Assembly: GCA_019187105.1 (NCBI GenBank)
Contig: JABAQM010000001.1
Coordinates: forward strand, 372,001-436,000
Origin: Fimbriimonadaceae bacterium
GTDB taxonomy: Bacteria; Armatimonadota; Fimbriimonadia; Fimbriimonadales; Fimbriimonadaceae
Direction: 5' to 3'
DNA: 64,000 bases
The position numbers and the translations under genes were made by a program. The notes beneath the pieces are model-generated. The model ran no database searches. It worked only from the letters and a program-made list of their open reading frames with translations, and had not been told where the DNA came from. The first letter of the stretch is position 1, and the number at the start of each line of letters is the position of its first letter. Of this stretch, positions 3,936-21,100 are shown piece after piece.

Positions 3936-6900
3936 CAGTTCGACTCCGGCCAGAGATAGACAAGGCCAACGGGCTCGATACGTGTGGCACGGACTTGATA
4001 GAAGGTCTTGATACGATCGGGCTCCGTTTGGAGATCTCGCTCGAACTGCTGGAGGCGAAGCGTCCAGGCTCGGGCATCGGCCTTGAGCTGGCGAAGCTCT
4101 TCATCGTTGAAGTCGCTTCCGAAATCCAGCTTGCCCTGGGACGCGTCTCGCTCATGCTTCGCGAGCCGTTCCTTGACTCGGACTTGCTGCGCTTTCAGTG
4201 TCGCCACCAGGTCACTGGCTTCCTTCTCGCCACGAGCAGCCAGCATCTCCTTGGCCTCCTCGGCAGTCTCTTCAGCCCGAAAAGTGAGCTGAACGAGCAA
4301 CTGTTCGATGTCAGATGAGGCTGTTTCGAGGAGTTTCTTCTGAATCGGCTCAGGGATGAAGCCATGCTTTGCCTTCCGAAGCGTGTCATCGAGGAGCTCT
4401 AGTGTCTTGGATTCAGTGTCCGCGGCGTACGGCTTCAGAGGTTCCTTTCGGAGAGACGGCTCGACCCACCTTGCCGTGATGGGGACGATCTCTTCGTGAA
4501 GACGCTCAGCAGATTGGCCGTAGAGCGACAAGCGGGCTAGCAGGACAACTCGAGGAATGGAGTCGGCGGATTGGCCGAGACAGGCGCGAGAAAGATCGTG
4601 GTGGACAAAGCCCTGTGATCGGAACCTCGCGAGCAACCTCTGGGCAACTCTTTGCTCGAGGTGGAGTTGGACCAACTCGTCCGTGAGGACTCCGGCATCC
4701 TCGAAGATTACGGGACGAATGGGCGATTCCTTGCGCCAATCAGCGATGTTCTGATTTGTCTTGCGCGGCTCGCGAAGCGTGTCAAGGGTGGCCGACCAAC
4801 TTGGATCGGTGATCGCCTTCTGGTCGAGTCGCGGAAACTCAAAGACCGTTCTTCCGTCGTGATCGACGCCTTGACGCAAGGGCTCCGAGTTCATGAGCTC
4901 GAGGGAGCAGGAGAGGGCGTTCCGGAACGGCTCCGGGTCGAACCCAGTCCACTTCCTCGAGGCATCCAAGATGGTTCGGCATCGTTCGATTTGGGCTTTG
5001 AGATCCTCTTGCCTCTCTCTCGCGTCTTCGAGTTCTTCGGCGGTCGTTTGCTTCAGCTTCTCGTCGAGATCCGCACGTTCGATTTCTTGGCGGAGGGCTT
5101 CGGCGTCTCGGTGTCGGATACCGCCTGACAGCTTCTTCTCGATGTTGCTATCGATGACCTGCGAGAGACTGCCGAGTTCCCGTTTGATGGTCTCCGTCTT
5201 CTTCACGAGAACTTCGAGAACGCGATCCTCAACACGCTGCGGTAGGACGAAGTAATGGCAACGGACCTCATCGGCGGGCTGGAGCTTCCGGTCGATTCGA
5301 CCATTGCGCTGTTCGATTCGACCTGGGTTCCAAGGAAGGTCGAAGTGGAAGAGATCGGCACAGTGCGCTTGGAAGTTGAGACCTTCGCGGGCGGCGTCGG
5401 TGGCAATCAAGATCCGGAGAGGATCTCGGGCCGGATCGGTATTGAACCTCCGCTGGATTTCTTTGCGGTTCTGGCTGCTGGTGAGTCCGTCTATGACCTC
5501 GATTCGGTCCTCGGCTTGGTCCGACGACTCAATGGCTTGTTCGAGAAGGGACTTGAGGTACCTCTTTGTCCCCTCCCGGTTCTCAGTGAAGATGATCACT
5601 CGGCGGTCATTCCATTTCGAGGTTCGCCCTTGCGCACTCATCCCGTAAGGAGGGAGATCCGGGCACATGTTGGTTCTGATCCAGTCGATGAGGGCGCGGA
5701 GCTTGGCGTCCGGATGGTGACGGGCATCCTCGGCGATCTTCTGCATCTGGTCGAGGAGTTGCTGCTCTTTGATCCAGAGTTCATTAGAGCTTTGGTCTTC
5801 TGAAATCAGACCTTCTGCGGTGAGGGTAGCCGACTCGATCTGGGCCGTTTCTTCGGCCTCGAGATCATCCGCGTCCCACTCGCCCCGTTCGTCATCGGCG
5901 TCTGGCGCATTCAGGAAGAGGTTGGGATCAAGGCGATCCGCATCATCGAGGCCAATTTCCTTGCGACGCTGTCGTTCGGCAGTGTTTCGATGAACCTTGA
6001 GGCTTCGTGAAAAGGCTTCCATCGAGGAAAGGAGACGCTGCTGGAGACCAACGATGAGGAGCCCAGCGGCCACCTGAGCTCGCTTGTTTGCTCCGGCGAA
6101 TCGCAGTTCTCGGATCGTGCGGTATTCGTCGAGCAGCCGTGACAGAACGAGTTCGGGGGCGTTGTCAGGCAAACCATCGATCGCTACACGGACGATACTG
6201 CGCTTCGGGAATCCACCTTGGATTGCGCGAATGTCCTCCTTCAGTCGACGAACCATGATCTCGTCGAGCGACTTCTTGCCTTGGACCGGGACTCCACGGG
6301 TGAAGCGATAGGGGTCGAGGAGCTCGAGCAGAGTCGAGAAGCTGTTCGAGTGGCCGTTATGAGGTGTTGCGGATAGGAAGAGACGGTGTTCAAATCTAGG
6401 GGCAAGATCTCGGATCGCGCGAGTGAACTTCGACTCGATTCCATACTTGCCACCGCTGGAGGGAGCGGCATGGTGCGCTTCATCAAGGATGAGAAGGGAG
6501 CCAGGCTGGAAGTCGCCGAGCCATTCTTCAAGCGTTTGAACATACGCGGGATCGATGAGCAGGTTGTGCGAAATCAAAAAGCGGCTATGAGTCCGCCATG
6601 GATTGACGCCAAACCCCCTTTCTCTCCGCATTCTGGTGAGATAGGCGCGGTCCAAGATCTCAAAGACGAGGCCGAACCGCTCTTCGAGCTCGGCCTTCCA
6701 TTGCTCGAGGACAGACGGAGGTGTCGCGATGACGATCGTTTTCGCTTTTTTCCGGAGCAGCAGTTCTCTTGCAATGAGACCCGCTTCGATGGTCTTGCCA
6801 AGACCTGTGTCATCGGCAATAAAGAGGTTGACTCGGGGAAGACGGAGAGCCTTACGGAGGGGCTCCATCTGGAACGCATCGATCTTGATACCAGCCCGGA

Positions 6901-7240
6901 ATGGGGATTGAAGGAGGCCGGGGTCGGTCGCGGTCACGCAGTTCCAACGAAGTGTGTGGAGGAACGCGGCAAAGAACTTGGGCTCATCGAATCCGCGACT
7001 TGCAAGGTCTTTCCAGGCTTCTTCTTGAAGCACCTCCGCGTCAACCTCGTAGTCCCATAAAACGTCCAGGTTCTGCCCCTGGGCGTCATCATCTGCGCAA
7101 GCAAGTCGGACGATGGGTGTTTGCTCGCCGTCATGAGCAACGACTTCGTCCACAAGCCACCTTCGGGAGCGGACCAGCACGAGGTCGCCAGCTCTTGGGG
7201 ACCTGACTAGGCTTGCGGGTGTCTCGATCTTGCCATTCAT
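3935..7240 (-). CDS. drmD: DISARM SNF2-like helicase DrmD
   Basis: SNF2/SF2 ATP-dependent helicase-translocase, about 1101 residues from the chosen start. The first RecA lobe shows a Walker A DTGLGKT near residue 144, a DEAHHAA box near 253 and SATPHNGHSNSF after it. The C-terminal lobe shows DAAREGLNFQ and RNGRIDR, with a charged coiled-coil-like tail beyond. These are family-typical for the class 1 DISARM helicase, thought to act with the DrmMI methyltransferase against incoming DNA. An upstream in-frame codon at 7309 exists. I prefer the ATG at 7240 because it has an AGGAG about 8 nt before it and overlaps the upstream stop as ATGA. Its 3' end overlaps the methyltransferase start (TGATG). 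drmA, drmB and drmC would be expected to the left, outside the window. Confidence 0.82.
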   Translation of the reverse strand: MNGKIETPASLVRSPRAGDLVLVRSRRWLVDEVVAHDGEQTPIVRLACADDDAQGQNLDVLWDYEVDAEVLQEEAWKDLASRGFDEPKFFAAFLHTLRWNCVTATDPGLLQSPFRAGIKIDAFQMEPLRKALRLPRVNLFIADDTGLGKTIEAGLIARELLLRKKAKTIVIATPPSVLEQWKAELEERFGLVFEILDRAYLTRMRRERGFGVNPWRTHSRFLISHNLLIDPAYVQTLEEWLGDFQPGSLLILDEAHHAAPSSGGKYGIESKFTRAIRDLAPRFEHRLFLSATPHNGHSNSFSTLLELLDPYRFTRGVPVQGKKSLDEIMVRRLKEDIRAIQGGFPKRSIVRVAIDGLPDNAPELVLSRLLDEYRTIRELRFAGANKRAQVAAGLLIVGLQQRLLSSMEAFSRSLKVHRNTAERQRRKEIGLDDADRLDPNLFLNAPDADDERGEWDADDLEAEETAQIESATLTAEGLISEDQSSNELWIKEQQLLDQMQKIAEDARHHPDAKLRALIDWIRTNMCPDLPPYGMSAQGRTSKWNDRRVIIFTENREGTKRYLKSLLEQAIESSDQAEDRIEVIDGLTSSQNRKEIQRRFNTDPARDPLRILIATDAAREGLNFQAHCADLFHFDLPWNPGRIEQRNGRIDRKLQPADEVRCHYFVLPQRVEDRVLEVLVKKTETIKRELGSLSQVIDSNIEKKLSGGIRHRDAEALRQEIERADLDEKLKQTTAEELEDARERQEDLKAQIERCRTILDASRKWTGFDPEPFRNALSCSLELMNSEPLRQGVDHDGRTVFEFPRLDQKAITDPSWSATLDTLREPRKTNQNIADWRKESPIRPVIFEDAGVLTDELVQLHLEQRVAQRLLARFRSQGFVHHDLSRACLGQSADSIPRVVLLARLSLYGQSAERLHEEIVPITARWVEPSLRKEPLKPYAADTESKTLELLDDTLRKAKHGFIPEPIQKKLLETASSDIEQLLVQLTFRAEETAEEAKEMLAARGEKEASDLVATLKAQQVRVKERLAKHERDASQGKLDFGSDFNDEELRQLKADARAWTLRLQQFERDLQTEPDRIKTFYQVRATRIEPVGLVYLWPESN

Positions 7241-9141
7241 TGGTTTAACTCCTGAAGGAGACTTTCGGGGTTCCAAACCCTGTTTGCGATCGCTTGGTAA
7301 AGGAGGCATCGCTCATCCAGGTCACCCCTGGTGAACCCATTGTAGGCATGAAACGGTAGTCCTAATTCGCCAATGAACCGTAGGAAGCCCGGGTTGTTTT
7401 GGTACGCGAGGGGAGCCATTGAGCCCGCGAGAAGGTTCTGGCCAAAGTAGTGATCTCGCTTGCTCTTATCAGGCGTCTCGCCTATGAAAGGCAGGGCTCC
7501 GTAGCTCGCGTTAAAACTCTTGGGAAGAAGTAGCAATCCGCCGAATCGGTTTCTGTGGCGGCGGAACTCGTCCGGGCTCGGAAACTCTTCTGCATGCCGT
7601 TCAGGCATATTCGCCCAGATGTGCTCGACTTCGTACCGATTCTTGCCGTCCTCCGCCATGTATTCCTCATACCGCGAAGACATGCCGCTCTGAAGCTCGA
7701 TGTACTCGGTGATTCGAGCGAGGAGGCAATGAAGCTGTTTACGGTTGCCCTGGTGCACAGTCAGGCCGATCCCGGCTTCGTGCATATAGCTGTTATTTGG
7801 GAAGTTCTCCTGCTCAGCCGTCAACTTGTCGTAAAGAACCTTAGCAAGCGGCTCCGGATCGAGCCCTCGGATGTCCTTCATCACGTTGAATGTCGCATAT
7901 TGCATCGTCGAATAGTCGGTAGCTCGATAATTCCAGATTCGCCACGCAAGCAGAATGTTGATGTATTGCCCGGCCAGCCGAAGTTTGCGCAGAACAGTGT
8001 CCCCGGAGTCTGTTGGCTTAAGCGAAGAGAGCAAAACCAAGTTCTGGAGAGTGAACCGATGGTGGGCGTTGTATCGGATGTGCTCCAGTCCTTCGGTTCG
8101 GAGTCGTGACGCATTGACGATCCCCTGGAACTGTCTGGAGAAGAAATCAAAGTCGCGGTTAATGAACTGGAAGAAGTCGTCGGATACCTTCAGCCCGACT
8201 TGGGCTGCTTGATCCCGTAGCCACCGATGAAACTCCGTTCCAATCCGGTCAAAGTCCTCGTTCTTTGCCCCTTTTTTGCGCTCTCGGATCTTGGTCGAGT
8301 ATTGGCTGCGGAGCCACGATTTGAAGAAGTCGGCTTCCAGCTTGTTCGAGAAATCCGTCTCTGCGTCGCGGTCGAGCTCTTGGATTTCCCGGATCCGCGC
8401 TTTCCATCGATCCGAGGCGGCTTCTCGCTTCTGGCTATCCGTTATGTTGGTAAGCAAGTACCCCTTGAGCATGTCGGACGGAGTAAGAGAGAGTCCCCGG
8501 TCGTTCATCGTCTCGAAGATCGTGTAGGCGTCATCGTCCGAATAGGCGGTGATCTCGACAAGGTGGACGTTGTCGGCGACCCAGTCGATGAAGAGCGGAA
8601 GGGCTTCCTCTTTGAGTTCGTCGGGGAAGCACGACTCGATGTCGGCGTATCGCTGAACGATGTTTCGGACCGATTCCGAGCGGTCGGTTGCATCGAAGGG
8701 GTCGCCTTTGTAAAGTGCCTCGAAGGCAGGGACGCGTTCACTGTCTTTGCCACCGTCGAGATTGAAAGCGATGTCGCCATACTGCTCGCTGACGATGAGG
8801 TCTTGGATCTTGGCCTTCTTCTCGCAGTGCATTTGCAAGTTGTTCAAGTAGATCAGGAGGATCGTGAGACTGGTGATGCGCTGTTGACCATCAACAATGA
8901 ACTTCAGCCCGCCCTTGTCGCTTATGATCACGGAGCCGAGGAAATAGTGCCCGTAATCTCGAACTTTGCTCCACGCATCGCCTTCCCTGTAGTCTTCGAG
9001 GAATCGATCTGACAGGTCGTCTATGAGCTCTTGAATCTGCTTCTCCTGCCATTTGTACTCGCGCTGGTAGTAGTCGATCGAGTAGCGTTTGTCCTTGAGC
9101 AGTTCACGGACGGTCTGGGCTTTACCAAGAATCTCCTTCAT
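7237..9141 (-). CDS. DUF262/DUF1524 GmrSD-like protein
   Basis: 634-residue protein with the two-part architecture of GmrSD type IV restriction enzymes and related defence proteins. The N-terminal DUF262 (ParB/GmrS-like) part shows YYQREYKW near residue 24, the nucleotide-binding IVDGQQRIT near 82 and FETMNDRGLSL near 209. The C-terminal DUF1524 (HNH-like) part shows YEVEHIW near 503-509 and N-R-GGLLLLP near 531-540. GmrSD enzymes cut modified DNA in an NTP-dependent way; whether this one does is inference. The final His-His-Asn arrangement is HNH-like but not the canonical HILP form. It is the first gene of the minus-strand defence operon; its TGA overlaps the DrmD ATG (ATGA). The 147 bp upstream (to 9288) hold its promoter region; I see no strong -35/-10 pair there. 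Confidence 0.85.
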   Translation of the reverse strand: MKEILGKAQTVRELLKDKRYSIDYYQREYKWQEKQIQELIDDLSDRFLEDYREGDAWSKVRDYGHYFLGSVIISDKGGLKFIVDGQQRITSLTILLIYLNNLQMHCEKKAKIQDLIVSEQYGDIAFNLDGGKDSERVPAFEALYKGDPFDATDRSESVRNIVQRYADIESCFPDELKEEALPLFIDWVADNVHLVEITAYSDDDAYTIFETMNDRGLSLTPSDMLKGYLLTNITDSQKREAASDRWKARIREIQELDRDAETDFSNKLEADFFKSWLRSQYSTKIRERKKGAKNEDFDRIGTEFHRWLRDQAAQVGLKVSDDFFQFINRDFDFFSRQFQGIVNASRLRTEGLEHIRYNAHHRFTLQNLVLLSSLKPTDSGDTVLRKLRLAGQYINILLAWRIWNYRATDYSTMQYATFNVMKDIRGLDPEPLAKVLYDKLTAEQENFPNNSYMHEAGIGLTVHQGNRKQLHCLLARITEYIELQSGMSSRYEEYMAEDGKNRYEVEHIWANMPERHAEEFPSPDEFRRHRNRFGGLLLLPKSFNASYGALPFIGETPDKSKRDHYFGQNLLAGSMAPLAYQNNPGFLRFIGELGLPFHAYNGFTRGDLDERCLLYQAIANRVWNPESLLQELNQ

Positions 9142-9747: not shown

Positions 9748-10101
9748 CTAAGACTTCGCCACCACTTCACGTGGGTCGAGGGTCAGGAGTGGCGTTCCAA
9801 GGCCGAAGTCCACGATCAGACCGTGCTTAGTCGCGCCCCATACTTTGCCGGAGCGACCCGTTTTTCGGTCAAAAACGGGGACTCCGTAGTTTGGAAACCA
9901 TCGGCGAAGGGCAGTTTCCTCGTCCGCCTCGTCCTGAAGGACAGCGGCTACGGCGTCGCGTTGCGTGCGCAACTCTGCCAACAGACTGAGCGGAAATCGC
10001 TCCGGGAAATCCAGCAGGATTTTGCCGTCCGGGCCGAGTTTCAGATGAGCGCCCTCGATTCTTGCCCGGTGGATGACCCGCCAAGCAACTTGCGCGCTCA
10101 A
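9748..10101 (-). CDS. Small TubC-docking-like protein of a mobile element
   Basis: 117 residues from a TTG at 10101. The N-terminal half (ahlKLGPDGKILLDFPERFP followed by LLAELRTQRDAVAAVL) resembles the TubC N-terminal docking-type fold that recurs in small proteins of plasmids and integrated elements, usually beside primase or replication genes. The C-terminal half (residues ~60-117) is unrecognised. The TTG overlaps the stop of the upstream primase gene in a TTGA arrangement and has an AAGGAGG about 8 nt upstream, which decides the start. A longer reading from a GTG at 10158 would overlap the primase by 60 nt with no better site. Its own stop codon lies inside an 11-base sequence (9741-9751) that recurs elsewhere in the window. 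Confidence 0.6.
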   Translation of the reverse strand: MSAQVAWRVIHRARIEGAHLKLGPDGKILLDFPERFPLSLLAELRTQRDAVAAVLQDEADEETALRRWFPNYGVPVFDRKTGRSGKVWGATKHGLIVDFGLGTPLLTLDPREVVAKS

Positions 10102-12494
10102 AACTCGATCCTCCTTCTTTCCCCCGTCCCCGCAGGAATAGGAGGAGAAGTGTCGCACGTGTCGCTAGCGTCGACAAATGCCAAATCCACGTTCAAACTG
10201 GAGGTTTCGACCGTTGACACTTTCAAAGATGCTCCGTCACAAGTGTCGAACGAAGTGTCGTCGACCAATGACCCTACTTCGGGTTCAGTTGTGCTCGTCG
10301 CCGCCTCTTCGACACTTACGACACCCGTTTTGCTGATCTTTTGGTCGAGGTGCCAAACGCGCTGTTTGCCACGCTCTTGCCAAATCTCAATGCCGACCCC
10401 GCGCAAAACCGGCGCGATTCTCCGAAGTCGCTTGCCCAAAGCGTCCGCGCTCGCGGGCCAGCCCTCGGGCCGATCCTTTGGGCCGTTGATTTCCTCTTGA
10501 AGGTTCAGCTTGGCCAGCATCTCACGCGCAGTTCCCTTGAACTCGCCAGATACCGCCAACGCCACAACGGCAGAGGAGAGCGCGTCTTCCTCTACGGTTT
10601 GCGCGTTCTTCGCCGCGCGATTCTGGGCCAGAAATTGCCACACGAGTTCGCGCTCGGCTTCCGGCGAACCGGCATGCACCCAGGCCGCAAAGTCAGCCAT
10701 TCGAGGCAACGCACCCGGTGGAGTGATCTTGCCTCTATCTCTGAGGGCCCGGGAAACGCGGTCCAATACCGCACCCAGAATCCCGCCGGCATTTGCGAGA
10801 TACAAGGTCTCCAGATCTGCCTCCGCCTTGCGATCGTCGCCTCCGGGTCTAACAAAATGAACGAAGAGTGACCGCTCGGCAAGGTCGGGTGCCGATGCCG
10901 GATCGTTGATCCCGTTAATGAGGACCGGTCTCCGCCCCATGACCACGTGTTCCTCCGAGTCCGTGTAAAGCTTACGTGCTGCGATTCCGCCACCTGTAGC
11001 TAGCGCACAAAGGGAGTCCGACAGTTTGGGCGATATGCTGGCCAAATTGTCGAAGGCAAGGATGAAGCCAGAACCAAGCGCGGCTGCAAGATCGCGTTCG
11101 TCTTTCGGTGGAAGGCGAAGCGAGGGCTCCGCCGGGTCGATAAGGCGTCGCAGAACCCTGCAGCCGAAACTCTTACCACTGCCCTGCTCCCCGGTCGCAA
11201 TGAGGATCGGGAAACCGCCCGGAGGAGGCATGAACGCGCCTAGCAGAAACGCCTCAATCATGGGCAGGCCGTCAGCGTCTACGCTAAGAAGCTCACTCAA
11301 TGCGGTCATGTTGCCGCCTGGTTTGGGCTCGGGTAGCGAGCCAGCATGTTTGGGGCGAACGAATCGCACCGGGCAGGCATCGTCGGCTACAAAGTCCCAC
11401 CCATCGGCGGCCACTCTAACAATGCGTCGCCTATCGTCGCAAAGATCGAGCCATACGGCCATGTCTGCGTGTCCTACCCGCCTGGCAATCTCTCGCTCTT
11501 GGCCCTCAAAGAATGCGTGCGCGGCCAACGTATCAACCGCCCGGTCTAGCGCGTCCTTCGGAGCCGCGCTCTTTCTTTGGTGGTACCACTCGCCGCCAAG
11601 CCATTCGCGGAAGCTCCTGTCTCTGACCGGCAAGTTATCGAACCCTCCCGAAACGTGCGGGACCGTTGCGAAGGGCTCTCGATTCGCGTTGTGCCACAAC
11701 TTGGCACGACTCCTGCCGAGCTCGATCAACCCTTCCGCCGCGTTCGCCTGCTTCTCGGGCTTCTCGGACTTGTGCTCTTCGATCAACTCGTCCAGCTCAT
11801 CCACAGTCCCGCCCCGGACGAAGAAGTCGTCGGCACCGGTTTTCGCACCGTCATCGCCCTGAAGCAAACGGCATACGTAAACTGCCGCACCCATCGCCCT
11901 AAGCATGTCAGCCAGGCGATCCTCAGCCTTCCGGACTTGTTCGTTCGTCGCTGAGTCAGAATCGAACACGATGCAGACTTTCTGTCCCTTGGGACCGATA
12001 AGGTCCCAATCGCCTCGAAGCGCGTCAACGTTCTTAAAGTTCCAGACGCCCGGCAACCCAAGTGCCGCCAAGCCCTGCGAGACTAGCGCGGCCGCTTTCT
12101 TCTCGCCTTCGGTAACGAAGATGTAGTCAAGTTCGGGCAAGGGTCTCCCCGCAACACTCTGTAAGCCTTCGATAAACGCACGCGCGGCTGGCAAGCAATA
12201 AACCCGGCACGATTGTCCCAGGGGCTGCTCGTACTTTCTTGGCCTACCCTTCGAGTCCATGCGAGGTGAGTCAGGCCGTATGCGTGAATACATCGGGCAC
12301 TCGCCGCCAGCCCATGTTAGTACAGGCAGTACAAGCGCGGGTGGCCTGATGTCTTCCTGTCGGAAGCCAATGTCCGAAAGTTCGGCTTTGGTGGTTGCCG
12401 TCCATGCTCCCATCTCGTTGATGATCGGAACCGAGATCGCAGATTCCCTTTCGAGAATGCGGCGGTGGCCTTCGGAAAGTAGCTTATGCACCAT
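10098..12494 (-). CDS. Mobile-element replication primase-helicase (DUF3854-like Toprim plus P-loop ATPase)
   Basis: About 798 residues from the ATG at 12494. The N-terminal third has Toprim-like motifs: TEGEKKAAAL near residue 128 and IVFDSDS near 176, followed by GADDFF. The C-terminal half has a Walker A GEQGSGKSF near 435 and a hydrophobic strand LAFDNLA that probably carries the Walker B aspartate. Then come a polar KLYTDSEE loop and RPVLINGIND, as in D5-like/phage primase-helicase ATPases. It probably primes and opens DNA for replication of an integrated element. The tail from about residue 730 is rich in Ser and Thr. An upstream in-frame start at 12713 would overlap the excisionase-like gene almost entirely, so I use 12494, which overlaps that gene by 11 nt. 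No integrase is visible nearby. Confidence 0.75.
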   Translation of the reverse strand: MVHKLLSEGHRRILERESAISVPIINEMGAWTATTKAELSDIGFRQEDIRPPALVLPVLTWAGGECPMYSRIRPDSPRMDSKGRPRKYEQPLGQSCRVYCLPAARAFIEGLQSVAGRPLPELDYIFVTEGEKKAAALVSQGLAALGLPGVWNFKNVDALRGDWDLIGPKGQKVCIVFDSDSATNEQVRKAEDRLADMLRAMGAAVYVCRLLQGDDGAKTGADDFFVRGGTVDELDELIEEHKSEKPEKQANAAEGLIELGRSRAKLWHNANREPFATVPHVSGGFDNLPVRDRSFREWLGGEWYHQRKSAAPKDALDRAVDTLAAHAFFEGQEREIARRVGHADMAVWLDLCDDRRRIVRVAADGWDFVADDACPVRFVRPKHAGSLPEPKPGGNMTALSELLSVDADGLPMIEAFLLGAFMPPPGGFPILIATGEQGSGKSFGCRVLRRLIDPAEPSLRLPPKDERDLAAALGSGFILAFDNLASISPKLSDSLCALATGGGIAARKLYTDSEEHVVMGRRPVLINGINDPASAPDLAERSLFVHFVRPGGDDRKAEADLETLYLANAGGILGAVLDRVSRALRDRGKITPPGALPRMADFAAWVHAGSPEAERELVWQFLAQNRAAKNAQTVEEDALSSAVVALAVSGEFKGTAREMLAKLNLQEEINGPKDRPEGWPASADALGKRLRRIAPVLRGVGIEIWQERGKQRVWHLDQKISKTGVVSVEEAATSTTEPEVGSLVDDTSFDTCDGASLKVSTVETSSLNVDLAFVDASDTCDTSPPIPAGTGERRRIEF

Positions 12495-12753
12495 CGCCTT
12501 GGCGGCGATCCGCGCTGCCCTTCCGTAGCTTCTGGGTGGAGTCTGCTTTATCGCTAATTTCCCCGCTTCCAGCCTCACCAAGGCCATCAGCCACAAAGCG
12601 CTCCAGTTCGACACGCGGAATCCGGACCCCGCGTTTGCCGACCCGAACGGTCCGGAGCCGTCCAGCCCGGATGAGCTCGTAAAGGGTCGACCGTGAAACC
12701 GCGAGGTGTCCACACGCCTCTACCAGTCTGATCAAAGTTGCAGATGTATTCAC
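12484..12753 (-). CDS. Excisionase-like helix-turn-helix DNA-binding protein
   Basis: 89 residues from a GTG at 12753. The first ~55 residues form an excisionase/MerR-type winged HTH: HLAVSRSTLYELIRAGRL, then RTVRVGKRGVRIPRVELERF. This is the usual Xis/HTH_17 pattern of an SRSTLYxLIxxG helix, a basic wing and a final ELERF. The rest is a charged tail. Such proteins control excision and expression of integrative elements. A -10-like TATAGT (complement of 12760-12765) ends only 6 bp before the GTG and there is no ribosome-binding site, so the mRNA may be leaderless. It is the first gene of a three-gene minus-strand operon with the primase-helicase and the TubC-like protein. A longer in-frame reading from 13035 would run through the divergent gene and is rejected. 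Confidence 0.75.
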   Translation of the reverse strand: MNTSATLIRLVEACGHLAVSRSTLYELIRAGRLRTVRVGKRGVRIPRVELERFVADGLGEAGSGEISDKADSTQKLRKGSADRRQGDGA

Positions 12754-12757
12754 GGAA

Positions 12758-12798
12758 CCACTATAGCACGCACAAATCTGTAGAACGAGGTATAGTGG
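12758..12798. promoter_or_regulatory. Inverted repeat with divergent -10 elements
   Basis: CCACTATA (12758-12765) and TATAGTGG (12791-12798) form a perfect 8-bp inverted repeat with 25 bp between. Each arm contains a TATAGT -10-like hexamer pointing outward: one ends 6 bp before the GTG at 12753 (minus), the other 9 bp before the ATG at 12806 (plus). The arms could be two face-away promoters for leaderless transcripts, and also the operator for the excisionase-like protein. Confidence 0.6.
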
Positions 12799-12805
12799 CA
12801 TCGAT

Positions 12806-13948
12806 ATGACGAACAACTCCCGAACAAATACGCCAGGAAACCAGAATCCGGTGCCATCGATTAGGACTAAGCTGTTGGGAGACAGTCGGGTACTAGAAGG
12901 TGCGTTTCGGTGGTTACTACGGAGGCCATGCGCCCTCTTATTTGGCGACTTCAGAATCCGCGGGCCAGTCTGTTTCCCTGAGCCGCCAAATAGTGCCCTG
13001 TATTCTTCGGGCCAAAGCGGGTGTATCGTTGTCACCGCGCCTGATCATCGAATGTTCGAAGCCGAGATCAGAATTGCGGAGTGTCTGAACCGATTCATGG
13101 AGCTGAAGTCACCCGATGAGGCACTGGCCTTTGCCAATGAATTTGGTTTCATTGGATTGGGACCTGCGAACGTCGGCTGCTACTTTGACTTGCAAAATCC
13201 TAACCAGCCGATCAAGACCTTGCCAGATTGGTTGCGTGAGTCGGAAACGGTCATGCCGCAGCCAGGAGAGCTTTCCGTTTGCCAGCTCGCGATCGAAACT
13301 CTCAACGCTTTCCCCCGACCTGACTTGCCTGACCTCCCAGAGATCAATCAGCATAACTTGAGCTTTTGTCTCCACGGTGAGCCCATTGAGATATGGCTTT
13401 GGCACGCGGAACGACTTCGAGTTTGGGCAGAGGTCGTCGGGCCGGGCACATCTGATCGGCGGGTGAGGGACCTGCTCGAACGTCCTGCGAATTACGAACC
13501 CGAATTACCTTGGCGATACCACCTATCTCACGATGCACCACCGTCTTCGTACGATTCCATCGGCGGCACCTATGAGAGAGTTCTTAACCCCAAGAGCGAG
13601 GCGCGGAGCATCATGGCAGATCGGATTGCTTTAGGGGTTCAGCAAACCGTTGACCGACACCTGGGCTTTGTGCCGAGCCAGGCACCAACCTGGCCCGAGG
13701 TTATCGTTCCAGACTCCCTTCTGACCGCCCTGTATCTCGAGTTTTCGCAACGTCATTTGCGGCGCCTCCAGGTGATTAAATCCACTCGCACCGTCACATG
13801 CGAGAAATGCGGTCGGCCAATGGAGGAAAAACTCAATGCACGGGGACGGAAGAGATTCTGCAGTGACGCCTGCCGCATGGCCCACACGCGGCTCTTGGCA
13901 CGGTTAAGGGCTTCAGATGTAAGCACAAGCGAAGCAAGCACGGACTAG
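12806..13948 (+). CDS. Hypothetical protein with C-terminal zinc-finger
   Basis: 380 residues, family not recognised. The C terminus (about residues 333-360) has CEKCGRPM, then FCSDACRMAHTRLL. This C-x2-C...C-x3-C treble-clef-like zinc-binding pattern resembles the small zinc fingers at the ends of CGNR/DUF6076-type proteins. The central part carries several Trp and Pro residues (RVWAEVVGPG, AERL) without a known motif. The ATG at 12806 has no Shine-Dalgarno; a TATAGT -10 ends 9 bp upstream, which suggests a leaderless or near-leaderless mRNA. It diverges from the excisionase-like gene across a shared inverted repeat, so it may be a cargo or regulatory gene of the same element. DNA or RNA binding is an inference from the zinc finger only. 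Confidence 0.7.
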   Translation: MTNNSRTNTPGNQNPVPSIRTKLLGDSRVLEGAFRWLLRRPCALLFGDFRIRGPVCFPEPPNSALYSSGQSGCIVVTAPDHRMFEAEIRIAECLNRFMELKSPDEALAFANEFGFIGLGPANVGCYFDLQNPNQPIKTLPDWLRESETVMPQPGELSVCQLAIETLNAFPRPDLPDLPEINQHNLSFCLHGEPIEIWLWHAERLRVWAEVVGPGTSDRRVRDLLERPANYEPELPWRYHLSHDAPPSSYDSIGGTYERVLNPKSEARSIMADRIALGVQQTVDRHLGFVPSQAPTWPEVIVPDSLLTALYLEFSQRHLRRLQVIKSTRTVTCEKCGRPMEEKLNARGRKRFCSDACRMAHTRLLARLRASDVSTSEASTD

Positions 13949-14634: not shown

Positions 14635-16240
14635 TTTTGAACCTAAGGTGTCATGTAACTTTGGTTTTTTTAGTGACAACCCCTAGCGCCTAACAATCGC
14701 GCCCAAAGTGCCGAAACGTAATCGTGGCCTTTCGAACCATTTTTCGCGCCGCGCATGACCAATCCTATGAGCGGCGCGATGACTTTTCGGGGTCGCAATT
14801 TCTGCAACCGCTGGCGTGCGCGCGACCACTAATTGCACCCGACTGGTACCGGCACGTGTACCTTGTTCCAAGGGCAGTTTCGGGCACCTCATGTCTTGTG
14901 CGCACGCCGCACACAGGATTGCACTGCCACTTGGATCCGAGGCATCCTTGACCCGATCTTTCGGGCATGCGTCGAAATTCTGCCCTCACTACCGGCGGAA
15001 GTTTTGGTTGCGATGCCACGATCTTACGACGAAAGAGCGCCACCTTATGCATCCGAAACGTGGGCGACCATCATGGCTCCGCCGCGACGACAACGCCCAA
15101 ACATTGCCTGTGCTTGGAAGCGCGATCCCGTACGTCTCGGAAAGAGATGCCAATGCTTGACGGGAATCAGTGAGCGCTACATTTCCGATGGCGGCAATGC
15201 CCCTAACCTGGCCGTTTCGTGCGCCACAATTTCCCCGGATTGGTCAAAGGAACCACGAGTGAAAACTAACGGCTGGCACACGCGCGCATGCGCGGCAATC
15301 AGGGTGCCCAAAGGTGACGGCTCTCGGCCGCATTTGGCAAAACCCATGCGCCGCTGCATTGCCGCGCGGCGTGACGCGCCACCATTCCCGCCGCTCCACA
15401 ATTGGCCAACGTCGGTGCGCAGCATTCGCAAAAACCGGCCAAAAGCGGTGAAGCAGATTTGAACCTAAAATGTCATGGAAAATGGGTATTTTTTTCATAT
15501 CAACTCCGGTGGACGAAAAATGCGCCGCCAAAACGGCACGGATTGGCACATTAGTGCCATGACTCAAGAGGCCCATGCCGGCACTCGGGCCACACTGGAA
15601 CGCAATAAGACCACCGTTAGCGGGACCCGTCGCACACCTGCCGCGCAGCGGGTTTCATCTGGAAAAAGCCAGCTCGCCAAAACTGGTTGGACACGCTTCA
15701 CACCCACCAAGCAGAGTACGCGATTGGCGTAACCAATGCGCCGCCGCATGGCCGCGCGCGTAGTGCCGCGCCACCATTCCCGCCGCTCTGCATTTCGGCA
15801 TAGTCTGCGCGCGCCAACGCGGCAAAAGTCCGCGAAACGTCGCGAAGCAGTTTTGATCCTAAATCGTCATGGAAAGTCGGTATTTGTTAGCGTCCCACTT
15901 TTGGGTTGATAAACGCCAAACCAAAGTGGACGGATTGGTCACGTTCATGCCTCGCCCAATAGCGGTCCGTGCCCAAAATCGCCATCAATCTGCCGCACCG
16001 GCGCGCCATGTGTACGTCGTTGGCGTGATCAGCCGCACTCTTGCCGCGGAGCGGGATTTATGCGGCGAAATCCGTCGCGCCAAAACTGGTTGGCACACTT
16101 CACACCCACCAAGAATGGGACATGATCGGCACCGGGAGCCGCGCCAATTCCTTGCCCAAATTGGTGCCCACCCGACACCGGCCGCGCTCGCCATTTTGTG
16201 ACGCCAAGCGCGGGTTGCACCGCGACAATGCGCGTAATAT
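14635..16240. repeat. Cluster of decayed ~390-400 bp direct repeats
   Basis: No convincing gene. The stretch is built of diverged direct repeats. A boundary motif, TTTGAACCTAAAATGTCATG at 15458-15477, recurs as variants at 14635-14655 and 15851-15870, and once outside the cluster at 25194-25219. Between boundaries, CGCCAAAACTGGTTGG followed by CTTCACACCCACCAAG occurs at 15675-15711 and 16078-16113. A GCGCCACCATTCCCGCCGCT block occurs at 15375 and 15768. Spacings are 391-403 bp. The 14635 to 15458 distance is about twice the period, implying one further eroded copy near 15050. On the minus strand the copies carry short stretches weakly reminiscent of the 3' half of the small HTH gene at 14023, but with stops. 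Confidence 0.65.
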
Positions 16241-16244
16241 CTTC

Positions 16245-17102
16245 TCACGAAGTGGACTTCGACGAAGCGATTCGACCACTCTTACGCATCCCAACTTCTG
16301 GCGGATCCCCGGCAGCGATGCGCCGCAAAAACGTCGCGACCGCCACTTCGAATCGCGGATCATCAACCCACACTTCCAGGGTTTTTTCCTCGCCGAATGC
16401 GCGGTGCATGTCCTGCCAATGCGCCGATCGCTTATGGATGCCAAGGGGCCGCCGCGGCCCTGCAATTGCGTCCTCTGGTGACATCCCGGCTTTCATCCGA
16501 ATGGTGATCCCAACCGCCGTGTATCGGCATCGGGGATCGGTTGCCCATGCGGCCAAGGTCTTGCGCTCACCAAAGGCTTCGATGAGCGGCTTACGATAAT
16601 GTTTGGGGCGTGTGCCTTGGACCAGCGCGTCTTCAAATGCCCAGCCATCGGCCAAGCGCCGCTGGAGTAGCGCTCGACTAACCATGCAACGTGAATCCCG
16701 CAGCCAGTCCGACAGTGACTTCTCTTCCCCGAATGCGGAAAAGTGGGGCGATGCAATGTCGCGCATCGACCGCGCGCGCATGGCAACTTCAATAGGAATT
16801 CCCTTCTTCACCCGTTTCAACAAGACGGAATATTCAACCTTGCATCGCGGATCTCTGGACCATCCGTTGACGGATTTCAGCTCGCCGAATGCGCCCCACA
16901 GCCGAACAGGTTTCCGTGCCCAAAAGCGTTGGCGAGACGCATCGATTGGCTGAGTAATCGCCGTTTCTGCCTGCCATCCGCAGCGAAGACGATGGACCAG
17001 TGCTGCGTAATTGACGGCGCACCGCGCATCGCGCGACCAAGCCTTGATGGACTTGGATTCGCCAAATGCTGCGATCAAATGCGGAGTAAATCGGCCGCTC
17101 AC
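16245..17102 (-). CDS. Protein of five tandem AFGE/W-RDPRC modules
   Basis: 285 residues from a GTG at 17102, made almost entirely of five repeats of about 50-60 residues. Each has the pattern AFGE-x-K-(S/T)-(L/I/V)-x-x-W-x-x-D-x-R-(C/F), then a helix ending R-(L/I/V/M) and a G-x-x-x-E-x-A/G turn. Copies start near residues 10, 68, 120, 172 and 232. The fifth copy has Phe in place of the Cys. Comparable single modules occur, as I recall, in phage and mobile-element proteins next to HNH/NUMOD-type DNA-binding segments, so a DNA-binding array is my inference. There is no catalytic motif. It sits between the decayed repeat cluster and the RHS locus and has no co-directional close neighbour. Confidence 0.6.
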   Translation of the reverse strand: MSGRFTPHLIAAFGESKSIKAWSRDARCAVNYAALVHRLRCGWQAETAITQPIDASRQRFWARKPVRLWGAFGELKSVNGWSRDPRCKVEYSVLLKRVKKGIPIEVAMRARSMRDIASPHFSAFGEEKSLSDWLRDSRCMVSRALLQRRLADGWAFEDALVQGTRPKHYRKPLIEAFGERKTLAAWATDPRCRYTAVGITIRMKAGMSPEDAIAGPRRPLGIHKRSAHWQDMHRAFGEEKTLEVWVDDPRFEVAVATFLRRIAAGDPPEVGMRKSGRIASSKSTS

Positions 17103-17350
17103 TCAACCTTGATTCTGACCTGCTGTTGCCGCCGCGTTGCTAGCCAGGCGCGGAAGCCGCCGGTAACAACTAATCGTCAACGCGAGGGCATGGCCCTCAA
17201 GCTCAACCGAACGCCTGCGCTTGATGCAGCCAGCTTATCTGGCCGTAGCGCGAGGACGCAAGAACATGCATCGCCGAGCTTGGCAAAGCTCGCATGCAAT
17301 AAATGCGATGCATGCCACCCGGGCTCAGACAACGGTTGCGGCCACCCGCC

Positions 17351-17441
17351 GCCGTGGTCGAAGTTCGCCCGAACTATCCAGCCGGTTCAGGGTCTGGAAC
17401 GCCCGCGATCCGCTCTCCGGCGAACCCACCCGGATGAAGTC
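17351..17441 (-). pseudogene. Fragment of the RHS core (shuffled remnant)
   Basis: Positions 17363-17441 match 19679-19757 inside the RHS gene over 79 bp with only a few substitutions. The preceding GCCGTGGTCGAA (17351-17362) matches 19641-19652, so 26 bp are deleted between the two blocks. Translated on the minus strand the fragment reads as RHS core (FIRVGSPESG, RAFQTLNRLDSSGE). It has no open frame of its own. The rest of the 17103-17448 gap shows nothing I recognise. Confidence 0.75.
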
Positions 17442-17448
17442 AACAGCA

Positions 17449-18117
17449 TTACTTGGGATCCGCACCGCCTCGAATGTCGTCGGACGCTGTCATGATTTCT
17501 TGAACCTGCCGGCCCTCCCCCATTACATCCTCGTCGCGGAGCCAAGCAAACCCTGGCAACAGGCAAACTTTTGTCCCTGCACCCGCGGTAGCTACCACAT
17601 TCTCGGTGGGGAGATAAAGAGCATGGCAACCAAACATGCCGTTCCATTCCAGTTCGACGCATTCGACAGCCGGCGTCGGCAAAGCCCTTACTGTTCGGGG
17701 CAGATGCAAGATGGCATCGGCGCTCTCACGCACGCGACCAAGCAAATCCATGTGATTGATGCAACCAAACGCATAGTCACCATATGGTGCTAGGGCAAAG
17801 CGGGCGTCTTCTAAGATATCCGCCGAACGTACTACCAGAAGAAAGCGGTCTGTTTCAGTGTCCTTTTTCCCAACAATCACCGAACCGATACCACCTTCCG
17901 GCAGGAATCTGGGAGCAGGGGCACCTCGAAGAAGGATTGCTTCCGACTCGCCGACTAGGCCGAGGATGGCCGTAATTCCCGCAGCCGAAGATAGGCGATG
18001 CATCACTTGATCTTCACATGCGCCATCGCTTTCAGCGGCTAAGTACGCAATGCTGGTTGTCACAAAACCAAAGCGTTCTTGTTGACATTCCGCTTTTACC
18101 CGCCGTAAGTACACCAT
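17449..18117 (-). CDS. Presumed immunity protein of the RHS toxin
   Basis: 222 residues, no recognised family. Its ATG (18117) overlaps the RHS stop codon by one base (TAATG), the classic position of an immunity gene directly after a polymorphic toxin tip. There is no signal peptide or membrane segment, so it should be cytoplasmic, as expected for protection against a toxin that acts inside the cell. Visible segments include AAGITAILGLVGESEAILLR near residues 45-65 and DRFLLVVRSADILED near 90. The role is inferred from position only. Beyond its 3' end lies an RHS core remnant, consistent with past exchange of toxin-immunity cassettes at this site. Confidence 0.6.
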   Translation of the reverse strand: MVYLRRVKAECQQERFGFVTTSIAYLAAESDGACEDQVMHRLSSAAGITAILGLVGESEAILLRGAPAPRFLPEGGIGSVIVGKKDTETDRFLLVVRSADILEDARFALAPYGDYAFGCINHMDLLGRVRESADAILHLPRTVRALPTPAVECVELEWNGMFGCHALYLPTENVVATAGAGTKVCLLPGFAWLRDEDVMGEGRQVQEIMTASDDIRGGADPK

Positions 18118-21100
18118 TAGTCAATCATTGACTCTTTAAATCCTTCGATAAAGAGTGCGAATCGCGTCTTACCATACAGCTTCTGCGCCTGTGAAGCATA
18201 CTTGTCGTACAGGTCAATGTGAGGAGTACCATGCTTTCCAACACCATAGTCGCCAAAATCGATCCCCATTCTACTATTGTTTTTATCGCCCAGCCAGAGA
18301 TAACCGTTAGCATCAAATTGCCAGTTGACTAGCTCAAACTCTGCGCCGACCATTTTCCCAACAATTTGGCCAAACTTTTTCGCCATCATGTCAAGGATCT
18401 TGTCCTTTGCCCAGTTCTCTGCTGCCTTGCAGGCTGCAGCATTGTTGGTTTCCAATAAGTCGTCTAGGAACTGGGTAAGGATCAGGTCCATGAAAAGACC
18501 GGTGCGATCAACCGCATTAGTTGCGTTATTGCCGCAATAGACGTACCAGTTCTTTCCGTCTCCGGCCGGATCCTCACTTACAAACCGCCCCGTTCCCGGC
18601 TCGTAATACCGAGCCCGCATGTAGATGAGGCCGCTTTCGTCATCCTGCCGATGGCCGAGGTTGGCGCAATATCTTTGCCCCGGATTGCCAGTCGAAGAAC
18701 CCGACCTTACCGAGCCCCACACATCGTAAAGTCGGTTATTCGATACGGAGTAGTAAGGCGTCGAAGTAGATCGCGCCAACGTCGCGACCATATTCCCGTG
18801 GCCGTCATAGAGCGGATAGCTCGCTGTTTCATCCGCCGTACCCACCTTCTGGTAGATCGCATCTTGGCCCCTAGCCCCTAACGCATACCGCGTCACAACC
18901 CGCGCCTGCCCGGTGACGGAAACATCATCCTCATAGCAGGACGAACCATCGTACATGTACCGCGTCGTCGGCATGTCGACGGATGTGATGTCGTCATAAT
19001 GCCCGCTCGCGGTGATCTCGTCGTATTGCCAGGCAATCGTCAGCCCTTCCACCTTCTTGACTCTCATCCCATCCGCCCGGTAAGCATACGTCGCCCCGGT
19101 CGAAGCCCCGACGCACGAGAGCATCCGGTTCAACAAGTCCCAGCTATACCGCTGCACACCGCTGGTCCCATAATTCCGCCACGTCCGGTTCCCCAGAATG
19201 TCGTGCTGGTAGTCGTAGCCAGGTGAAGCGCTCATGCGGTTCAAGTTGTCGTAAGCATAGCCCGAGTTCGCCCGATTCCCGGCCGCGTCATAGCTCCAGG
19301 TGTGCGTCGTGGCGCCGTCGTATTCCACCGCCGTCAAGTAGTCCTCCAGCGAGTCGTAATCGTATTCTTCGGTGCTGTAAGCGGTATCGCTCGCATTCCG
19401 ATAGGTCGCGCTCAGCCGCAGCCCCTTTGTGTTGTCGTAGGTATACACCGTCCGCCCGATGCGGCTCTCGCTATCCAGCTCCCCGCCCGAATCGAAGTTC
19501 TGCCACCAATGGGCCACATCTAGCGCCTGGCCGCGCTGGTTGTAGGTGTTCGCGACCACCGCCCGGCGCGAGGCGATCAGCTCGTCGTAGTCGCTTGTCC
19601 CGTTGGGAGACTGGGCGAAGGCCGAATAGAGCAGCCGCCCGCCGTGGTCGAACTGGTAGTGGAACTCCTCGGCGGTCCGTTCGCCCGAACTATCCAGCCG
19701 GTTCAGGGTCTGGAACGCCCGCGAGCCGCTCTCGGGCGAACCCACCCGAATGAAATCGAAGTAGCCCCACTTTGTGGTGCCGTTGTTGGTCGCGTGGCTC
19801 TTACTCGCCACATCCCCGACGACGGTGTAATCGTAGGTCGTCGTATGATTGGAAGCCGAACTCGCCAGATGCTGCTCCTGGATGCTCAGCAGCTTGCCAT
19901 AGCGGTGCGGCTCGCTGGAGTTCGTGTAGTAGGCGTAGTTCAAGATGACGTTCGAGAGCCGGTCCCAAGCCTGGGTCATCACCCCGTTCGTGATGCCGCT
20001 CGAGCCGTAGGCGTAGCTCGCGATGTTCTTGACCGGGTTCACGTTCGTATGCTGGACCAGCGTCACCTGATCGTCGGCGTTATAAGTCGTCTCGATCACC
20101 CGCCCCGCCGCATCGGTGATAGCCAGCGGCTTGCCCCAGTAGTTGTAAGCGCTGGTCTCGGTCGTGCGGTTGATCTTGCCCGATCCCGCATCCTCAACGA
20201 CCTCCGTCACCCCGCCCCAATACGGCGAAGCCAGCGACGTGTCGTAGGCGGTGGTGGTCTTCACATAAACGTAAGTGCTGCTCGTCCCCGCCGTTCCGGA
20301 GTGCAGCTTCTCGATCTGCACCGGCCGCCCCTTGTCGTCGTATTCCATCTTGGAAACCGAAGCATTGGCGTCGGTCACCGTGATCGTGTTCCGCCAGTTC
20401 GAGCCCGACGAGTTACTGTAGCTCGCGTACTTGCTGTCGTAAACTGCCTTTAGCGCCCCCGCCGCCGCGCCGCCCGTGGTTTGGGTGTTCGTGTAGTACT
20501 CCGAGAACTTGAACCGCCCGCTCGGGTCTTTCACCGCCTTCTGTTGATAGTACTTATCGGCTCCGTGATAGGCGTATTCGGTGGTCAGGGTCGGGAGGCC
20601 ATCGGCATATTGCGACCGGTTTAGCGGTGAACCCAGGTAGTTATAGTCGGTCCAGGTTTCGCCGCGAATAGCGTTGTAGTTCTCGGTGGGGAACTGCCGC
20701 TCTTCGTAGAGGCTGCCCACGATGCGCTGCGCTTGGGAGAAGCGCTCGCTATAGACGCACAGGCTGTTGGTGCGCACGAGCTTTTGCCAGATCCCTGCCT
20801 GGTAGTTGTTGATCCACCACTCCATCGGCAGATCGGCGTCGGGCAAGCACTCTGCCTGAGTTGGCGTGGAGTCGTCCATCATGCCGACGACGAAAAAGTC
20901 CTCGTGCTGCCAGTTTCCGTTCTGGCTGTATTCGGGAGAGACATACATCATCCCCTCGTTCGTGGACACCGGGTTGGTGCCGTCGAGGTACCAATCGGTG
21001 AAGGTCGTGCCGTAGGTATCGGCCCCGCTCGTAAAGTCGGCGTTCGTCGTCCCGAAAGTGGAGAAGCTCGTCTTGGTGCCGTCCGAGTGGCTGATCCGGT

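Follow-up and report, generated by a model that had tools for sequence, protein, structure and literature searches.

Few bacterial families are known in which tandem units read DNA unit by unit. NUMOD1 and IENR1 are small hairpin-plus-HTH (helix-turn-helix) DNA-binding units found on homing endonucleases, C2H2 zinc-finger arrays are beads on a string with variable recognition helices, and TALE-like repeats are 33–35 residues long and superhelical. Phage HNH endonucleases of the PHROG 3377 type (YGGRGI...DRID HNH) are site-specific and usually carry a single small module behind the HNH domain. We have analysed a stretch of 64,000 nucleotides from a Fimbriimonadaceae bacterium (the window), which encodes a protein having five such modules and no nuclease. 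As judged from sequence comparison, this protein consists of multiplied copies of the probable HTH tail of the HNH endonucleases, with no nuclease attached. Like the TALE-like repeat proteins, including STAR, as treated in the main text of PMC11417379, it has tandem units in one protein and is likely to read DNA in a composite manner. Passages of PMC10293859 likewise describe several HTH domains in one target-selecting protein for the TnsD selectors of Tn7-like transposons.

The array gene occupies 16245..17102 on the minus strand and encodes 285 amino acids (GTG start at 17102–17100; the stop codon is included in the coordinates). An AAGG sequence four bases 5' of the GTG (17107..17110, minus strand) was picked by eye as a possible, weak ribosome-binding site, and a consensus scan of 16100–17500 found neither a sigma-70-like promoter nor a terminator. 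The modules, of about 45 residues each, start at residues 12, 71, 123, 176 and 235, with spacings of 59, 52, 53 and 59. All on the minus strand, they correspond to 16947..17069 (module 1, residues 12–52), 16770..16892 (module 2, residues 71–111), 16614..16736 (module 3, residues 123–163), 16455..16577 (module 4, residues 176–216) and 16278..16400 (module 5, residues 235–275). Over the 41 columns compared, any two modules shared 13–21 identical residues (mean 40.7% for the ten pairs), and the residues A, F, G, E, K, W, D, R, R, G and E occupied 11 invariant columns. Alignment scores for the ten between-module pairs were 62–106, while the best of ten pairs reached a maximum of 45 over 1000 shuffles of the protein; chance is thus excluded as the source of the five-fold modularity. 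The residues beyond the five modules form short basic linkers only, so the description in the earlier note of an open reading frame made of almost nothing but five diverged modules was correct. The AFGE...W-RDPRC motif given there does recur five times, but its RDPRC part is not strict: the second R is kept, modules 1 and 3 have A or S at the P position, and module 5 has F in place of C. The isoelectric point is 10.4 for the window protein and 10.0–10.4 across four arrays.

No Pfam family matched the 285-residue protein at E ≤ 10, PADLOC gave no match, and NCBIfam returned one irrelevant match far under the cut-off and nothing naming the protein. Four stretches of the array protein matched phrog_3377, 'HNH endonuclease' (E = 1.2e-12), and besides this module match no nuclease family was found by the Pfam, PHROG and NCBIfam searches. 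The protein is therefore, as had been claimed, an array having no nuclease or other catalytic part. The profile search proposed earlier as a check thus connected the module to no Pfam family and, through phrog_3377, to the C-terminal tail of phage HNH endonucleases.

Structure prediction of one module, the other proposed check, gave a confident β-hairpin and three helices (AlphaFold2 with 75 aligned modules as input; residues 6–60, covering module 1; mean pLDDT 89.8). The full array was predicted with a mean pLDDT of 85.5 and a pTM of 0.35, which indicates confidently folded beads on linkers without a fixed mutual arrangement. Fold searches of the PDB with the module and with the array yielded nothing at E ≤ 0.001 (Foldseek) or Z ≥ 2 (VIA-align), a result that carries little weight for a query of 55 residues, and a PDB profile search with the RDPRC form gave no match. 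In a library of viral predicted structures the best matches were phage HNH endonucleases, PVL ORF-50-like proteins and an 'HTH homing endonuclease', with TM values of 0.7–0.8, probabilities of about 1 and E-values of at least 1.5e-3 (none under 0.001).

Among relatives of one HNH protein, a motif-defined tail was present at 52 of 52 loci. Three of these tails were of the RDPRC form, 13 were of a plain HTH form by a crude pattern and 36 stayed unclassified; by eye most of the latter are plain, and some loci are without a tail altogether. A plain-form profile made from 31 tails picked by eye aligned in hhalign with the RDPRC profile at 98.7% (E = 4.4e-16), the extra DPRC residues sitting in the turn. 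Individual plain tails matched HTH families weakly (27 families at E ≤ 0.1, best 0.0013), and the plain-tail profile matched the SigW HTH in the PDB with an E-value of 0.0023, with the first two helices covered. The phage endonuclease tail and the array unit are thus the same module by sequence profile, by profile–profile comparison (plain form) and by predicted fold, the difference being that the window protein has five of them and no nuclease. We therefore regard the module as, most probably, an HTH whose turn is enlarged. DNA binding is its likely role because the HNH relatives bear the same tail as a plain HTH, and the modules are probably DNA-binding. This is in line with the putative function suggested for them earlier, which is also supported by the high isoelectric point and by module-specific conservation of helix 2 in a related protein, described below. 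Module homology, predicted fold, architecture, absence of nuclease, constraint on the protein and recurrence were computed; DNA binding by the nuclease-free arrays is inferred.

By the tests made, the array protein lies outside the TALE, zinc-finger and NUMOD1 families. NUMOD1 and IENR1 are likewise small HTH-bearing units and are likewise multiplied. Membership in NUMOD1 (PF07453) was rejected, as there was no Pfam match and the hhalign probability against the RDPRC module was 0.2%, using a NUMOD1 profile of 38 copies (of 46 found) gathered via T4 MobB relatives; the plain-form tail reached 38% over 22 columns. The TALE-like type, with near-identical repeats differing at two positions, is ruled out by the mean identity of 41%, the spacing of 52–59 residues and the separate hairpin-HTH beads. 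C2H2 arrays follow a similar bead logic but the fold of the array module is different, no Cys or His occurs among its invariant columns, and the lone Cys of RDPRC is F in module 5. The TniQ core of TnsD was not seen in the array proteins, and the TnsD Pfam model touched only one relative, from Planctomycetes (L076), under the cut-off. The PVL ORF-50-like family (PF07768) gave good fold matches and also sub-threshold sequence matches from long arrays; the window protein had no match to it, and the array at L060 scored 23.6 bits against a cut-off of 27. PVL ORF-50-like is a single-unit Staphylococcus phage protein, the remainder of which is unlike the array proteins. We also observed a parallel nuclease-free array on a phage contig (L135), a protein of 278 residues in which repeated NUMOD1 gave the strongest Pfam match and no nuclease was seen.

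The module occurs in several architectures. Rhodococcus phage Peregrin gp61 and a Salmonella phage SPN9CC endonuclease carry one C-terminal module each. When viral contigs were scanned with the array alignment, 33 loci emerged, mostly with one module behind an HNH-type domain and some with two or three; one locus (L026) encodes a 7-module array with no visible nuclease, and at another (L028) the array is divided over two overlapping frames. The 69 distinct proteins among the loci fetched by then contained 174 modules, under a filter that demanded W..D.R and thereby excluded the Streptomyces plasmid array. One module was present in 36 of them, 25 of which were HNH-like by a simple motif, and at least three, up to 11, were present in 22, with the motif absent in 18 of these. 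Forms with HNH plus one, two, three and eight modules and nuclease-free forms all occur. Nuclease-free arrays of 3–11 modules were observed in Fimbriimonadia-type Armatimonadota, on a Streptomyces plasmid (WP_159026371, five modules), on an Aneurinibacillus plasmid (five plain-form modules with an unrelated N-terminus ahead) and on phage contigs. The five-unit array is thus unusual, as the earlier note had it, but not unique, since a second gene exists in the same genome and relatives have 3 to 11 modules. A Nostoc plasmid protein contains the HNH-plus-module unit twice. In two Planctomycetes loci (L075 7509–9569 and L076 6921–9749) we saw an HTH, a YGGRGI-type HNH-like domain and a module repeated several times. 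A plasmid gene annotated as XopAD/skwp effector (NC_019265.2 56652–57761) gave a weak tblastn match to the 11-module array (20% identity, E = 2e-4), possibly due to chance or composition.

Occurrence within the phylum is patchy. The full-protein search had matches in 9 of 101 genomes (own and relatives) at E ≤ 0.001; when the module alignment was used, at E ≤ 1e-6, matches were present in 20 of 291 genomes from the phylum. Named records with the module comprise MAGs of Armatimonadetes and Fimbriimonas as well as two from Planctomycetes, and genome G161 encodes a relative with two modules; a Planctomycetota sample of 246 genomes had two positives, both known beforehand. A FastTree tree of 169 modules had 29 changes of label between array and HNH modules, which indicates no single array clade, a tree of such short sequences proving little. 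In the passages of the literature searched, no report of such arrays was recognised, and the terms HNH, homing, phage, HTH and Armatimonad are all absent from the main text of PMC11417379, which screened for tandem repeat proteins that bind DNA.

The second five-module gene of the genome lies at G000:C1:2724137-2724910, and its 282-residue frame is 47% identical to the window protein. Nucleotide identity between the two genes was 57, 67 and 39% at codon positions 1, 2 and 3, respectively, and 36 of the 113 identical residues (M and W excluded) share the same codon. This pattern reflects a long divergence under constraint at the protein level. Agreement in register was best for modules 4 and 5 (24/43 and 23/43), module 4 being in clear register with its counterpart and module 5 having C replaced by F in both proteins; it was unclear for modules 1–3. 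In the module tree, modules 2–5 of the window protein were nearest or second nearest to modules 2–5 of the paralogue. Columns 21, 22, 25, 26 and 29 lie on the predicted exposed face of helix 2. At the predicted surface positions 20–22 and 25 the two proteins agreed in 0–20% of modules, and they may therefore bind different DNA sequences or lack sequence specificity. The paralogue is located near an HD-CE protein.

Five genomes of one genus encode a three-module relative whose C-terminal domain is conserved but goes unnamed in Pfam. In the four closest of these orthologues (L100, L101, L103 and L106), helix-2 columns 20–29 showed 76% identity when one module was compared between species and 18% when different modules were compared (P = 0.00045 against random ten-column sets), and the best of 36 eight-column windows was columns 20–27. 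Of all segments in these four orthologues, the predicted recognition helix thus varies least from species to species and differs most from module to module. A four-residue tail behind the module showed a similar difference (0.55), so the pattern is not confined to helix 2, and the signal was weaker (P = 0.059) in a set made up of L101, L103 and L105, a diverged fifth member. dN/dS among the three-module orthologues was 0.13–0.32, computable for six of ten pairs, with dS saturated. The four loci share a neighbourhood consisting of a gene with PheRS beta chain domains, a 461-residue protein and a 106-residue protein, which indicates a vertically kept chromosomal gene. Their C-terminal domain reads GGELWVY...RISLI, and a protein with two modules (L097) has a similar C-terminus.

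We consider, with a probability of roughly 0.65, that the window protein is a nuclease-free five-unit HTH array that would bind DNA non-catalytically at a composite target and act as a repressor or site-blocker. In the proposed course of events, the C-terminal HTH unit of an HNH endonuclease, usually single and in the phage enzymes helping to locate the cutting site, would have been multiplied, the nuclease being absent. The second helix of each module would insert into the major groove, with flexible basic linkers allowing the beads to track the DNA. We infer that the composite target extends over some tens of base pairs and is bound tightly without catalysis, with repression or site blocking as the outcome, probably at a mobile-element or conflict locus. 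Most likely, the array works like a multi-finger DNA-binding protein.

Two other readings start from the same modules. The array could be a relic of a homing endonuclease, a multiplied tail that has stayed on as a functionless remnant after loss of the nuclease domain; the coexistence of HNH forms having one, two, three and eight modules with nuclease-free forms, and the patchy occurrence in the phylum, would agree with this. However, two open frames of 285 and 282 residues have been kept at 47% identity with codon position 2 slowest and position 3 saturated, arrays stay intact at up to 11 modules, and a syntenic orthologue group exists in at least four species, all of which makes a functionless relic improbable. 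Somewhat less improbable, though still unlikely, is a sequence-nonspecific or nucleoid-type binder in which extra modules add avidity only. A basic protein of flexible beads would suit such a role, and so would the difference in helix-2 surface between the window protein and its paralogue; against it, each module of the four orthologues keeps its own helix 2 while the modules differ mutually, and single modules are appended to phage endonucleases, which are site-specific.

That the repeats bind RNA or protein instead would fit the failure of Foldseek to find an HTH in the PDB, but the homology of the module to the HTH tails of DNA endonucleases leaves this very unlikely. The least probable reading is that the array targets the DNA adjoining the gene. 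Decayed repeats are indeed present there, as noticed earlier: 15334–15711 and 15724–16113 are 69% identical over 393 columns, with units of about 390 bases, and weaker partial copies lie further left of 15334. We observed no three-base phase in gap lengths or mismatches and no frame with a module remnant, so 15334–16113 is a non-coding, diverged tandem repeat, and the idea that these repeats are decayed modules or genes was rejected. Its adjacency and its diverged, non-coding nature would be compatible with a binding target. On the other hand, the repeat unit is unique in the genome and nothing like it stands beside the paralogue. In flanks of up to 5 kb per side (shorter for L005, L062, L063 and L064), 11 of 16 array loci had no direct repeats, and a diverged tandem repeat was found only at the window and at L062. 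The suggestion that the array reads these repeats is therefore unsupported rather than disproved, and we regard it as highly improbable. Flanking direct repeats also occur at L061 and L062, and the pair at L062 resembles a dispersed palindromic repeat.

The site-finding unit of homing endonucleases thus recurs in strings that lack a nuclease and reach eleven units, and Fimbriimonas-type bacteria have a version that is inherited vertically. More speculatively, and in our view doubtful, the arrays could form a bacterial polydactyl HTH class, in which each second helix reads a few base pairs, the order of modules spells a long target and modules are perhaps swappable. Should the modules bind independently, array length and recognition-helix residues would make up a testable code, and the arrays would mark a route from a selfish nuclease to a host DNA-binding protein.

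No neighbour is widely common to the array loci, the PheRS beta-chain neighbourhood being limited to the four orthologues. As there is no fixed partner, it is from the neighbours only that a role in conflict or on mobile elements can be suggested. In the left part of the window, a DISARM DrmD-type helicase (E = 0, 1020.8 bits) and an adjacent GmrSD-like restriction protein form a defence island at 3938–9141. It is followed at 10098–13035 by a DUF3854 primase-like gene that stands beside an HTH_17 gene, an arrangement resembling a small mobile-element core. An RHS protein is encoded to the right of the array gene. In the intervening DNA, the segment 17363–17441 (79 bases) is 95% identical to 19679–19757 inside the RHS gene and resembles the remnant of a displaced RHS tip. 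Finally, members of one Pfam-less protein family are found next to the arrays in two genomes only, G016 and G034 (L060 538–1479 and 12636–13646; L064 1642–2379), and the frame at L064 abuts the array.
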